The notes beneath the pieces are model-generated. The model made no database searches. It worked only from the letters and a program-made list of their open reading frames with translations, and was not told the DNA's origin. From Balneola sp. (lineage in GTDB: Bacteria; Bacteroidota; Rhodothermia; Balneolales; Balneolaceae), in contig NZMW01000004.1 of the NCBI GenBank assembly GCA_002694685.1, positions 678,632-742,631 on the forward strand: a DNA stretch of 64,000 nucleotides. Direction: 5' to 3'. Position 1 is the stretch's first letter, and the number at the start of each line of letters is the position of its first letter. The position numbers and the translations under genes were made by a program. Positions 24,251-29,567 of the stretch are shown piece after piece.

Positions 24251-27200
24251 ATGAAAAAATTTACGACACTGCTTTTCTCACTATTAATGGTTTTCGGATT
24301 TTTAGGTAATGTGATGGGGCAGACAACACTTTTATCAGACGATTTTGAAGCGGGTAATTTGAATTCTTGGACAGATGATTCTACAGATCATTGGTCCGCA
24401 TCTACTACGAGCCCTATTAGTGGAACATATTCGTTGCAGCATGATAACACATTGTCTTCTGGTGACAGTGAATCATTTTTATATCAGGCTGTTTCGGGCA
24501 CCCATTTAAGTGACAGTATTACTACTTGGAGGTTTAATATGAAAAACGGCTCGTTTGATCCATCTGGTCCAAATAATTTTGGAGTTCTTTTGATGGGTGA
24601 CCAAGCTAATCCGGCTGATGGTTCACAAAATGGCTACTATGTGGGTGTAAATTTTAATGGTACAAGCGACGATATAACCCTTCATAAAATTACAAGTGGA
24701 GCAGTAACCGATCTTATTACAGCAGAAGTGAACGTTAATACTAGTGATCTTATGGGTGTTAAAGTTGTCCGCCAGCCATCTGGGTCATGGGAACTATTTG
24801 TTGACAATGATGAGGATGGAGTATTTAATAACTTTACTTCTTACGGTTCAATAACTGACAACACTCATACTACTTTCTCATATATATCCTTCTACTTTGA
24901 CTATAATACCACCGGTGATGCTGACCTACAGTTTGATGATTTAATTGTTTTTGAAGAAGAGAATACTCTAAAGGCAGAACCGACGAATCATGCGACTAGT
25001 TTTAGTGCAACCTCAACAAGTGTAGAGAAAGTTGATCTATCTTGGACAGATGCAAGCAGTGTTACGCTCCCGGATAGCTATTTAATCTTAGCGAATGATG
25101 ATAATTCTTTTTCAGTTCCTTCCGATGGTACTGCACAATCTGATGATACTGATCTGTCTGATGGTTCAGCTGTATTAAATATCTCTCAAGGCACTCAATC
25201 TGCTTCTTTTTCAGGACTAAATCCAAATACCCAGTACTATTTTGAAATCTACTCATACACAAATTCCGGATCTAATATTAATTACAAAACAGATGGAACA
25301 GTACCTTCGGATAATGCAACTACATTAGAGGCACCTGATTTAGTTTTAAATGAAATTTTTGCTGACCCAGCTACTGATATAACTGGAGACGCGAATGGCG
25401 ATGGTACAAGAGATTCTGCTGATGATGAATTTATAGAATTTGTGAATACAGGGAGCAGTGATTTAACTATAACTGGTTGGACGGTCGAAGTTGGCGGGAG
25501 TACAGAGCATACGTTTACTGACCCAACAGTCCTTAGCCCAATGCAAGGTATTGTGATATTTGGAGGCGGTACTCCGACTGGTGATTTTGGTAATTCAGAA
25601 GTACAAACTGCTTCAAGTGGAAGCGTAGGTTTAAGCAATAGTGGAGAAACTATTGAAGTGAAAGATGGAAGTAGTAATACACTAATATATTATGAATACG
25701 GAGGTGCTTCTGATCAGTCGGAAACCAGAAGCCCAGATTTGACAGGTGACTTTGCTGATCATTCATCAGCAGATACTGATGACGCTTCTTTATTCTCTCC
25801 AGGTACCCGTATTGACGGTTCAACTTTTCAACCCACCGTTGAAATATCTGGAAATGCAGGTTGGAGAATGCTTTCTTTGCCTGTTGAAGATGGAACTGTG
25901 GAAGACATTTCTGATGACACGGCTGTGCAAGGAGTTACGGGTGGAGATAATGCCGGTGAAACTTCAAATTTTTACATTAATACAGCATCAGACGGTTCCG
26001 CCCAGAATGGATATATGGTACCTACAAATGTAACTACCCCTTGGGGAGACGGTCGTGGGTTTATTCTATATTTCTACGACAACACTACGGCAGGGAGTTC
26101 TGAATTACCAATTACATTAGAGGCGTTTGGGACAGAACCTTCGGGTGATGTAAGTGTGACTGTGTCAAATAGCTGGGCTTTACTTGGTAATCCTTTTAAC
26201 AGCAATTTTGAGCTAGATGAGCTAACAGGAAATGATTCCGGACAGGGTGTTAACAATGGTCTCAAAAGTCCAGTAAGTGTTTGGGATGATGGAGCTGGTA
26301 CCGATGAAAGCGGATCATGGATTACTGCAAATTTTGGTTCTGGCAATAATGAAATACTAAGTACCTGGCAGGGATTCTTTATCGAACGTAATAGTAGTTC
26401 AACAACAGAGATCACCTTCCCTGAAGCCGGTAAAACAAGCACTACTTCTACCGTTGCTTCATTTTCTAAGGAGAACTCAGATCAATTTCGGGAAGTTGAA
26501 TTATTACTGGAAGCACCTGGTAATCTATCTGATAGATCTAACAAACTGTATTTTACAAATAAGGCTGTGGAAGGAAGAGATGCGTTTGATGGAGGAAAGC
26601 TTACTCCTCTGAACGGCTCACCTTATCTATCATTTGTAAACAACTTTGGAAGCGGTGATGAGCTTTATGTACAGGATTCTCGTCCTGTTCAACCGGAGAG
26701 AGATCAGGTATACGAGTTAGCACTGGCTGATGCCGGACTTAGCGGAACCTACACACTCAGCTGGCCTGAAATGAAGAATATCCCTTCTGACTGGACATTC
26801 ACCCTTACTGATTTTGAGACGGGTGAAACAGTAAATATGATTCCAGGAGAATCGTATGAATTTACCGTTGAAGCTAAACAGAAAGCACCGCATGCCAGTG
26901 TGCTAAATCTGACCGCAGTTGAAGCTGCTCCTGAAGAAGTAAGTGCGAGATTTGGTATCAGGATGTCTAGCAGCGTAACGACCAGTAATGAACGAGGAAC
27001 AACACCCGAACAGTTTTCACTAGAGCAAAACTACCCGAACCCTTTTAACCCAGCCACAAATATTCAGTACAGTATTGCTGAGACAGGCTTTGTTAAGCTT
27101 ACCGTTTATAATGTAATGGGTCAACGGGTGGCTACGATAGTTAATGAGACGAAATCAGCCGGCACCTACCGTGCAAGCTGGGATGCTTCGAATATGGCAA

Positions 27201-27271
27201 GTGGAATTTATCATTATCGTTTGCAGGCAGGCAACCAGGTATTCACCAAACAAATGACATTAATTAAATAA
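24251..27271 (+). CDS. Large secreted multidomain protein with type IX sorting domain
   Basis: A 1006-residue surface or extracellular protein. Order: signal peptide (1-23, GNVMGQ); a concanavalin/LamG-like jelly roll (about 25-235); a fibronectin III-like region (about 245-355); a lamin-tail domain (about 360-480, LVLNEIFADP, FIEFVNTGSSDLTITGW); a module starting SGNAGWRMLSLPVEDG (about 535-735); a module from FREVELLLEAPGN to YEFTVEA (about 740-880); and the T9SS type A C-terminal domain with SLEQNYPNPFNP and QMTLIK at the end. The last three parts are shared with the protein at 27645. No catalytic motif is visible; display or adhesion is inference. A weak AAGG lies 9 bp upstream of the ATG. 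Confidence 0.85.
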   Translation: MKKFTTLLFSLLMVFGFLGNVMGQTTLLSDDFEAGNLNSWTDDSTDHWSASTTSPISGTYSLQHDNTLSSGDSESFLYQAVSGTHLSDSITTWRFNMKNGSFDPSGPNNFGVLLMGDQANPADGSQNGYYVGVNFNGTSDDITLHKITSGAVTDLITAEVNVNTSDLMGVKVVRQPSGSWELFVDNDEDGVFNNFTSYGSITDNTHTTFSYISFYFDYNTTGDADLQFDDLIVFEEENTLKAEPTNHATSFSATSTSVEKVDLSWTDASSVTLPDSYLILANDDNSFSVPSDGTAQSDDTDLSDGSAVLNISQGTQSASFSGLNPNTQYYFEIYSYTNSGSNINYKTDGTVPSDNATTLEAPDLVLNEIFADPATDITGDANGDGTRDSADDEFIEFVNTGSSDLTITGWTVEVGGSTEHTFTDPTVLSPMQGIVIFGGGTPTGDFGNSEVQTASSGSVGLSNSGETIEVKDGSSNTLIYYEYGGASDQSETRSPDLTGDFADHSSADTDDASLFSPGTRIDGSTFQPTVEISGNAGWRMLSLPVEDGTVEDISDDTAVQGVTGGDNAGETSNFYINTASDGSAQNGYMVPTNVTTPWGDGRGFILYFYDNTTAGSSELPITLEAFGTEPSGDVSVTVSNSWALLGNPFNSNFELDELTGNDSGQGVNNGLKSPVSVWDDGAGTDESGSWITANFGSGNNEILSTWQGFFIERNSSSTTEITFPEAGKTSTTSTVASFSKENSDQFREVELLLEAPGNLSDRSNKLYFTNKAVEGRDAFDGGKLTPLNGSPYLSFVNNFGSGDELYVQDSRPVQPERDQVYELALADAGLSGTYTLSWPEMKNIPSDWTFTLTDFETGETVNMIPGESYEFTVEAKQKAPHASVLNLTAVEAAPEEVSARFGIRMSSSVTTSNERGTTPEQFSLEQNYPNPFNPATNIQYSIAETGFVKLTVYNVMGQRVATIVNETKSAGTYRASWDASNMASGIYHYRLQAGNQVFTKQMTLIK

Positions 27272-27344
27272 TTATTTATGAACTCTGAATAGTTCATGTA
27301 AATTACTTTCGACTATTCAGGATCATCCATACAAAATCAAGATT

Positions 27345-27560
27345 ATGAGAACTCTGATATATATTTCTTTGACCCTCGCTTTCTTATTAGCATTAGCTTC
27401 AATTGTTGTAGCCCAGCCCGGTTTGCCTTCTGCACCTTCTCAGGCTCCGATTGATGGCGGACTGAGTTTACTGGCCGCTGCAGGTGGCGGGTATGCAATT
27501 AAGAAGCTTAGAGATCGAAAAAAAGCACAAGATGCTGAAATTGATGATCACAAAATGTAA
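27345..27560 (+). CDS. Small exported peptide with PID-CTERM-like sorting signal
   Basis: A 71-residue protein: signal peptide (1-23, ASIVVAQ), a very short Pro-rich mature part (PGLPSAPSQ), then APIDGG, a Gly/Ala-rich hydrophobic segment (LSLLAAAGGGYAI) and a basic cluster (KKLRDRKK), ending in an acidic tail. Motif - hydrophobic span - basic residues is the layout of C-terminal sorting signals cut by exosortase-like enzymes, and the PIDGG start fits the PID-CTERM class in Bacteroidota. Almost nothing would be left after processing at both ends, so it could instead be a small bitopic membrane protein. It sits between the two type IX cargo genes, 73 bp after the first. Confidence 0.65.
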   Translation: MRTLIYISLTLAFLLALASIVVAQPGLPSAPSQAPIDGGLSLLAAAGGGYAIKKLRDRKKAQDAEIDDHKM

Positions 27561-27586
27561 GCTTATTAAATAGATATTTATATTTT

Positions 27587-27620
27587 AAATGGTGCCTTAA
27601 TCTCGGGCGCCATTTTTTTT
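27587..27620 (+). terminator. Rho-independent terminator
   Basis: AAATGGTGCC and GGCGCCATTT form a 10-bp stem with one G-U type pair and a 9-nt loop, followed by eight T residues. It closes the transcript carrying the PID-CTERM-like gene and lies only 25 bp before the next start codon. Confidence 0.85.
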
Positions 27621-27644
27621 ATCTGAATGAATTAAGAAAAATCT

Positions 27645-29567
27645 TTGATCAGCAAAATCAATTTTACGGTAGTTAGTTTAGCTTCTTTTGTGTTGTTGCA
27701 TTCCACCTTATTCGCACAAAATGAAGACGTCAGCTTTCGGGAAATTTCGCTACGGCTGGATGCTTCAAATGGAGCTACTGATTACAGTAATAAATTATAT
27801 TTCTACGAAAACGGAAGCGAAGGTGAGGACGCTTATGATGGTTCAAAGCTAGCATCAATATCGCCGGGCAATCCATATATGTATTTTGTTCAGGATTTTG
27901 GAGAAGGTGAAATTGAATTAGTACAGGATGCGAGGGGCTTGTATCCTGATACCATTCAGACTTATAGTCTTGAAGTTGAAGATTCAGAATTTTCAGGGAC
28001 TTTCACAATCAGCTGGCTGAATTTTAAAAACATTCCTGATTTGTGGGAATTATGGCTGGTTGATACTGATCTTGACTCTACCATTAATATGAGCGACGAA
28101 TCGGAATACTCCTTTACCACAAGCAGAAGCTTCCAGGTTTTGATTGAGCCGGTTACTTCTCAGGTTGTAATTACAGGAGATGCGGGGTGGAGGGTGCTTT
28201 CCTTTCCGGTGACAGGAGCCTCGGTAACACAACTTACGGACGACACGGCCATTCAGGGAATTAGTGGTGGCGAAAATGAATCCGCTGATCCTAACTTCTA
28301 CCTCAATCTTGCCTCTGATGGTACAGCTGGAAATGGATATTCAGCGCCGACAGATATTTACACCTCTTGGGGTGATGGATATGGTTTTCTTACCTATTTC
28401 TTTGACAACAAACTAGCAGGGAGCTCTGATCTTCCAGTTACAATTAATGCAATGGGCAAAGAACCTGAAGGGGATGTTACGCTAAGTATTTCGAATACAT
28501 TCACTCTGGTAGGTAATCCTTTTTTAAACAATCTGGAACTGGATGAAATATCAGGAAATGGAAGTGGAGGTACCAAAGGTGGTCTACAAAGCCCAGTCTA
28601 TTATTATGATTCTGGTGGGCTAGGCACAGCTAATTTTGGAACAAACACCATAATTAGTACTTGGTCTGGTTTTTTTCTTGAACGTGCAGGTTCATCAACA
28701 ACTAAATTGACGATCCCAAGTTCTGCTAAAACAGATACTGCTGCAACAGCTGGTTCTTTTTCGAAGCAACAAAGTCCTTCATTTAGGGAAATCGAACTGC
28801 ACCTTGAAGGTCCGAATTCCTTAACGGATAAGTCATCTAAACTATTTTTTCATTCTGCCGCATCAGAATCAACCGATCCTTTTGATGGCAGCAAGTTATA
28901 TCCAATCGATGGACGTCCATTTCTGGCTTTTTCTGATACAGGAGATAATTCAACAAGATTATTGGTACAGGATGCAAGAGCATTAAATCCCGAAAGAGAA
29001 CAAGTATATAATCTTCTGGTTTATGACAATGGAAAGAGCGGAGTTTATACATTGAGCTGGCCGGTTTTTAGAAACATTCCCGAACATTGGGAACTGATGC
29101 TATTGGATTTAGAAACCGGTGTTTCCTTATCGATGAGGGACTATAAATCCTATAAGTTTGAAATTGAATCGACGTCGAAAAACCTACCAAAGAAAGAGTT
29201 AAAGCTGTTAAAGCAGGTAGAACAAACATCAGGCCTGACTCCAAGGTTTAAGATTGTTGTAGCAGCTGCTCAGGCGACCAGCATTGAGTCAGGAGAAAAC
29301 CCAGATACCTTCAGCCTATATCAGAACTATCCCAACCCCTTTAATCCCTCTACTACTATCGAGTACAGATTAACCAGATCCAGCAACGTTACTTTAAATA
29401 TTTTCAATGCGATGGGGCAGAAGGTTAAAACGGTAGTCAACGAAGTGAAATCAGCAGGAAGCTACCGTATCAGTTGGGATGCAACAGGTTTCGCTAGCGG
29501 CGTTTACTATTATAAGCTGAAAGTATCGGATGGGGTTATGACAAAAAAAATGACGCTGATTAAATAA
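27645..29567 (+). CDS. Secreted type IX cargo protein with duplicated module
   Basis: A 640-residue secreted protein. The start is TTG (TTG ATC AGC), which gives a good signal peptide ending TLFAQ. A module of about 120 residues occurs twice: FREISLRLDASNG... (about 32-150) and FREIELHLEGPNS... (about 378-500), each with a 'SNKLYF / DAYDGSKL / VQDAR / SWLNFKNIP' type skeleton. Between them is the GDAGWRVLSFPVTG module (about 178-350). The protein ends in a T9SS type A domain (SLYQNYPNPFNPSTT, MTLIK). All three modules are also in the protein at 24251, so the two genes are paralogues by tandem duplication with domain loss or gain. Function unknown. Confidence 0.83.
   Translation: MISKINFTVVSLASFVLLHSTLFAQNEDVSFREISLRLDASNGATDYSNKLYFYENGSEGEDAYDGSKLASISPGNPYMYFVQDFGEGEIELVQDARGLYPDTIQTYSLEVEDSEFSGTFTISWLNFKNIPDLWELWLVDTDLDSTINMSDESEYSFTTSRSFQVLIEPVTSQVVITGDAGWRVLSFPVTGASVTQLTDDTAIQGISGGENESADPNFYLNLASDGTAGNGYSAPTDIYTSWGDGYGFLTYFFDNKLAGSSDLPVTINAMGKEPEGDVTLSISNTFTLVGNPFLNNLELDEISGNGSGGTKGGLQSPVYYYDSGGLGTANFGTNTIISTWSGFFLERAGSSTTKLTIPSSAKTDTAATAGSFSKQQSPSFREIELHLEGPNSLTDKSSKLFFHSAASESTDPFDGSKLYPIDGRPFLAFSDTGDNSTRLLVQDARALNPEREQVYNLLVYDNGKSGVYTLSWPVFRNIPEHWELMLLDLETGVSLSMRDYKSYKFEIESTSKNLPKKELKLLKQVEQTSGLTPRFKIVVAAAQATSIESGENPDTFSLYQNYPNPFNPSTTIEYRLTRSSNVTLNIFNAMGQKVKTVVNEVKSAGSYRISWDATGFASGVYYYKLKVSDGVMTKKMTLIK

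Follow-up and report, generated by a model that had tools for sequence, protein, structure and literature searches.

Two neighbouring genes, here called p1 and p2, end in the same set of modules placed ahead of a type IX (T9SS) sorting domain, and the question raised by this locus is what these modules are, how far they reach beyond the pair and what they do. The genes lie on contig 4; the genome measures 3.95 Mb, and the named bacteria closest to it are Balneolaceae, e.g. Balneola and Gracilimonas. The window, that is, the whole stretch of DNA analysed, is 64,000 nucleotides long, and the following features are given in its coordinates.

24251-27271, plus strand: p1, predicted T9SS type A cargo of 1006 aa (signal peptide, lectin-like region, Fn3, lamin tail domain (LTD), module A, module B, sorting domain (CTD))
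24998-25273, plus strand: Fn3 domain of p1 (residues 250-341; Pfam PF00041, E 7.5e-6)
25331-25699, plus strand: LTD of p1 (residues 361-483; Pfam PF00932, E 1.2e-10)
25838-26446, plus strand: module A of p1 (residues 530-732; module HMM 1e-67; no Pfam or NCBIfam match)
26462-26866, plus strand: module B of p1 (residues 738-872; module HMM 3e-42; BLASTP)
27011-27271, plus strand: T9SS type A CTD of p1 (TIGR04183, 42.4 bits, cutoff 23)
27345-27560, plus strand: PID-CTERM protein of 71 aa, between p1 and p2 (NF046080, 45.3 bits, cutoff 26)
27587-27615, plus strand: terminator-like hairpin after the PID-CTERM gene and before p2 (11 pairs, T-rich tail; consensus match only)
27645-29567, plus strand: p2, predicted T9SS type A cargo of 640 aa, TTG start (signal peptide, B1, A, B2, CTD)
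27735-28115, plus strand: module B1 of p2 (residues 31-157; module HMM 6e-32)
28164-28742, plus strand: module A of p2 (residues 174-366; module HMM 5e-64; AF2 pLDDT 90.8, pTM 0.86)
28779-29159, plus strand: module B2 of p2 (residues 379-505; module HMM 9e-40)
29307-29567, plus strand: T9SS type A CTD of p2 (TIGR04183, 42.5 bits, cutoff 23)

Judged from their sequences, p1 and p2 are type A T9SS cargo. Both carry an N-terminal hydrophobic signal sequence, the CTD of each was matched by Por_Secre_tail / TIGR04183 above the curated NCBIfam cutoff, and the T9SS translocon SprA is encoded in the genome (TIGR04189, 1539 bits). The start of p2 is apparently TTG; after the upstream stop at 27633, no ATG occurs in frame ahead of the signal peptide. 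Over their last 477 aa, the two proteins were 50% identical (BLASTP, E 7e-156), far beyond chance, with 54% identity in module A and 59% in the CTD. For module B, the pairwise identities were 49% (p1-B and p2-B2), 43% (p1-B and p2-B1), and 46% (p2-B1 and p2-B2). The sequence-only reading of this locus had described two neighbouring type IX cargo proteins with shared modules, the second with a FREI-type module twice, and these descriptions hold, the open reading frames included. Its motif FREIxLxLE...VQDAR marks a module that is present in both proteins, but the exact letters do not apply to p1, which reads FREVELLLE and VQDSR. It had also assigned lectin-like, Fn3-like, and lamin-tail domains to p1; Pfam recognised the Fn3 and LTD, whereas the lectin-like part stayed at a sub-threshold CBM_4_9-like stretch at the N-terminus, and no lectin family exceeded the Pfam cutoff in p1 or p2.

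Module A is about 195 aa long with the signature GWRxLSxPV...GNPF...QGFF, and module B about 130 aa with FRE[IV]...VQD[AS]R...SW. In both proteins A and then B stand directly before the sorting domain, with one more B ahead of A in p2. When p1, p2, and 34 aligned A-B members were scanned, no Pfam or NCBIfam model covered A-B, in agreement with the earlier statement that the modules match no known domain. Plain Fn3 or CARDB repeats had been named as the identity that would overturn that statement; at the level of profiles, neither model matched module A or B at E <= 0.1 in any of the 34 members. Module B gave a weak, sub-threshold match to Ig_VWA7 (E 0.025-0.05).

The modules had been read as a fast-evolving secreted set. 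We found that A-B is, by profile matches, one conserved unit that is widespread among T9SS cargo and not private to p1 and p2. In the genome studied, 9 of about 60 cargo genes (7 clear, 2 divergent) carry A plus B immediately before the CTD, and the only B lacking a preceding A is p2-B1 with its counterparts. With the A-B of p2 as single query, the unit was found in 49 of 57 related genomes; the A-B alignment as query detected it in 154 of 394 genomes sampled from the whole phylum. The N-terminal partners of A-B cargo in this genome include LamG, Invasin_D3/Big_1 repeats, a Reprolysin-type metalloprotease, LTD/Calx-beta, and ASH/HYDIN-type Ig repeats. A minimal form of about 500 aa, comprising just signal peptide, A-B, and CTD, occurs in some Balneola (loci L098-L101); thus, the function of A-B may go beyond display. 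In the genome studied, A-B is missing from about 50 cargo genes that do have a CTD, so it is not a general requirement for surface attachment. A profile for A-B, absent from Pfam and NCBIfam, would annotate a sizeable share of Bacteroidota/Balneolota secretomes.

The structure of p2 was predicted with a mean pLDDT of 79.6, and A and B2 were well predicted and nearly all-beta; module B is thus a predicted beta domain. Module A of p2 modelled alone was confident (see the list above), and the structure check proposed earlier again left it without a relative: no PDB match in Foldseek reached E <= 0.001, the best having E 0.12, and Z did not exceed 3.2 when VIA-align 2 was run on the top 1000 Foldseek chains. 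Botulinum HA70 domains (Z 3.2), followed by enterotoxin and cupin domains, were rejected as relatives of module A, their VIA scores being at noise level. With the whole p2 model as query, Foldseek and VIA mostly returned matches to the Ig-like CTD fold, from which little can be learned about A or B. As far as the model goes, no solved counterpart of module A was found, which does not prove a new fold. Within module A, the first half can be aligned in register with the second, so that GWRxLSxP meets xWxLxGNP and GxGF meets WQGFF. In hhalign, half 1 against half 2 scored 23.7; 200 column shuffles reached at most 20.1, and the reversed comparison gave 10.2. Since the halves align above all 200 shuffles, an old internal duplication is indicated, and module A is likely an old internal repeat.

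All PDB chain sequences were searched with the 34-member A-B profile (hmmsearch). Two credible matches were obtained, both from Flavobacterium johnsoniae and both spanning the second half of A plus B: RemA, residues 1079-1335 (E 5e-17), and RemZ, residues 701-1011 (E 3e-13). On the strength of these matches, A-B is homologous to the region before the CTD in RemA and RemZ, and it occupies the same place there, directly ahead of a type A CTD. The unit therefore extends to a characterised gliding adhesin, RemA, of which RemZ is a homologue. There are also differences. RemA has no match to the first half of module A and RemZ matches that half only partly, and the N-terminal domains of RemA and RemZ differ from those of p1 and p2. 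Because no lectin family exceeded the cutoff in p1 or p2, we label the shared region "A-B as in RemA" and do not call either protein a RemA. In cryo-EM work on RemZ, the CTD alone was well resolved (PMC10994853), so that, to our knowledge, A-B lacks an experimental structure. With the RemA CTD attached, SprB-HaloTag does not move, but RemA-HaloTag, which ends in that CTD as well, includes a highly mobile population (PMC12618676). Surface behaviour is therefore influenced by portions of RemA that precede the CTD, and A-B is among these.

Three sister species retain the gene order p1, PID-CTERM, p2 together with the same flanking genes. Identity to the sister-species orthologues is about 55-57% for p2, 69-90% for the flanking genes, and 60-70% for the C-terminal half of p1; for the N-terminal half of p1 it is at most about 60% (53% in one species, in part only in another, and not detectable in the third). 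The fast evolution attributed to the pair was borne out, as the divergence of p1 and p2 equals or exceeds that of the flanking genes. In the ML tree, the p1 and p2 orthologues formed separate clades (support 99/95 for the three closest p1 copies and 100/99 for p2); therefore, p1 and p2 had separated before the genus arose. The idea of a recent tandem duplication limited to this strain was dropped on account of this tree, and since p1 and p2 were joined as sisters with weak support (84/49), the tandem duplication proposed earlier stands only in a loose sense. Domain shuffling, also proposed then, is confirmed in this family by three comparisons of its sequences. First, in the B tree, the B1 copies of p2 and its orthologues formed one clade (0.998) with the B1 of a gene from another genus, yet the B2 of that gene grouped elsewhere. 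Second, the N-terminus of p1 has been exchanged. Third, in the p2 orthologue of one sister species (L177:6947-9622, minus strand), an Endonuclease_1 domain (PF04231, 1.6e-40) precedes B-A-B-CTD and was apparently gained, or retained there alone. That orthologue, with its N-terminal Endonuclease I domain, would be a secreted nuclease.

The 71-aa gene between p1 and p2 had been overlooked in the sequence-only reading. Its product consists of a signal peptide, a Pro-rich spacer (QPGLPSAPSQA), a PIDGG motif, a short hydrophobic stretch, and a basic tail, and PID-CTERM proteins generally have this layout, with about 12 Pro-rich residues before PIDGG. The gene starts 74 nt past the end of p1. The terminator-like hairpin behind it suggests that p1 and the PID-CTERM gene form one unit and p2 another; a single p1-p2 operon was dropped for this reason.

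Both PID-CTERM genes of this genome lie directly behind an A-B cargo gene. A simple estimate (9 A-B genes, 3.95 Mb, within about 300 bp downstream, right strand) puts the chance of two such placements at about 1e-7. Among 57 relatives, 99 PID-CTERM genes exceeded the cutoff; 49 of them had a same-strand A-B match 438-844 nt upstream, and none of the 99 had an opposite-strand match within 3.5 kb. When the upstream DNA of most of the remaining genes was read, the total behind A-B cargo rose to 79 of 97 tested in relatives. Three more follow a CTD without visible A-B, two of these three near contig ends. Outside the order, an A-B cargo gene stands immediately before 14 of 29 tested PID-CTERM genes, these cases being spread over several families. 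Since A-B also occurs in genomes that lack PID-CTERM (46 v 33 of the sample), the mini-protein cannot be obligatory. A literature search on PID-CTERM and exosortase X found no relevant paper. The genetic coupling of PID-CTERM genes to A-B cargo genes is new and is the more surprising part of our results.

The genome also encodes an exosortase X (NF046081, 201.6 bits, cutoff 170; L218:1444-1968, contig C16). PID-CTERM and exosortase-family genes co-occurred in the 57 genomes (28 with both, 5 with PID-CTERM only, 6 with the exosortase only, 18 with neither; Fisher p = 7e-6, kinship ignored), and the NCBIfam accessions of PID-CTERM and exosortase X are adjacent (NF046080, NF046081). From these two facts, the PID-CTERM protein is presumed to be a substrate of exosortase X. 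The adjacency of the cargo and PID-CTERM genes then suggests a link between two protein-sorting systems, and it leads to a specific hypothesis on which substrate and which partner the exosortases of these bacteria may have. A 175-aa gene without an assigned family (L218:966-1493) overlaps the end of exosortase X and might encode an exosortase-associated partner.

Partner genes are known from related systems. In type B T9SS cargo, a PorP/SprF-like shuttle gene lies immediately downstream (PMC12618676). By analogy with this shuttle gene, the PID-CTERM gene downstream of A-B cargo may be regarded as a partner of the cargo; unlike type B cargo, however, the proteins here have a type A CTD, and the putative partner is a very small PID-CTERM protein and not an outer-membrane shuttle. 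The PEP-CTERM/exosortase system is similar in combining a C-terminal sorting motif with a dedicated exosortase. It differs in that here the motif is PID, the enzyme is exosortase X, and the protein to be sorted is very small, its gene being linked to one for T9SS cargo. Surface colonisation by F. johnsoniae depends on xrtF, an exosortase gene, as well as on T9SS genes (PMC10936215).

Starting from the observed homology, position, spread, shuffling, and gene coupling of A-B, we hypothesized that A-B probably serves as a membrane-proximal display or attachment module for exchangeable effectors, and that the PID-CTERM mini-protein probably cooperates in anchoring or localising the cargo. In the T9SS type A family, signal peptide and CTD drive Sec export and SprA/PorV translocation. 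By membership in that family, p1 and p2 would reach the outer surface via Sec and then SprA/PorV. There, an internally duplicated beta domain and a second predicted beta domain would sit between the CTD and an N-terminal effector, which might be lectin-like/Fn3/LTD, a protease, a nuclease, Ig repeats, or nothing. The most likely role of A-B would be to hold this effector off the cell and to contact envelope partners. In a large subset of cases, the co-oriented PID-CTERM protein, after the action of exosortase X, would help to anchor or place the A-B cargo.

Alternatively, A-B could itself be adhesive or bind a ligand (glycan, mineral, or polymer), with the N-terminal domains as accessories. 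The minimal cargo with A-B alone between signal peptide and CTD, the B-A-B composition of p2 with nothing else, its divergence at a faster rate than neighbouring genes, and the adhesin nature of RemA are all in keeping with this idea. Nevertheless, very different effectors precede A-B (metalloprotease, nuclease, Ig repeats), and the lectin domain of RemA is a separate domain (PMC12618676), so that we regard direct adhesion as possible but rather unlikely. A slightly more doubtful and openly speculative extension of the display role is a two-part system, in which exosortase X would leave a Pro-rich peptide of the QPGxPxxPxQAPID type on an envelope lipid or glycan, where the A-B of the T9SS partner would dock. 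If true, this would couple an exosortase directly to the anchoring of T9SS cargo.

It is much less probable that A-B is an extended secretion signal required for recognition by the T9SS. Its constant position directly before the CTD would fit, but the RemA CTD by itself directs secretion of mCherry or sfGFP (PMC10994853, PMC12618676), so A-B is not needed for this purpose, and the many cargo genes here with a CTD but no A-B point the same way. Least probable of all, and very improbable, is that A and B are ordinary, already described Fn3, CARDB, or Ig repeats: the all-beta model of B and its faint Ig_VWA7 similarity are set against the failure of Fn3 and CARDB models on all 34 members and the structural searches with module A.

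Several minor observations concern A-B cargo elsewhere. Three large A-B cargo genes (1233, 1699, and 2534 aa) with Invasin_D3, Big_1, and LamG domains are clustered at 751-769 kb of contig C1, and clusters resembling this one turn up in other genera. A record labelled Candidatus Neomarinimicrobiota contains an A-B gene with a broken frame, whose product shares about 50% identity with Balneolaceae members; mislabelling or transfer may be the cause. Moreover, an A-B cargo gene in a genome of the same genus (G004:C14:256787-257854) contains one in-frame TGA and is thus perhaps a decaying copy.
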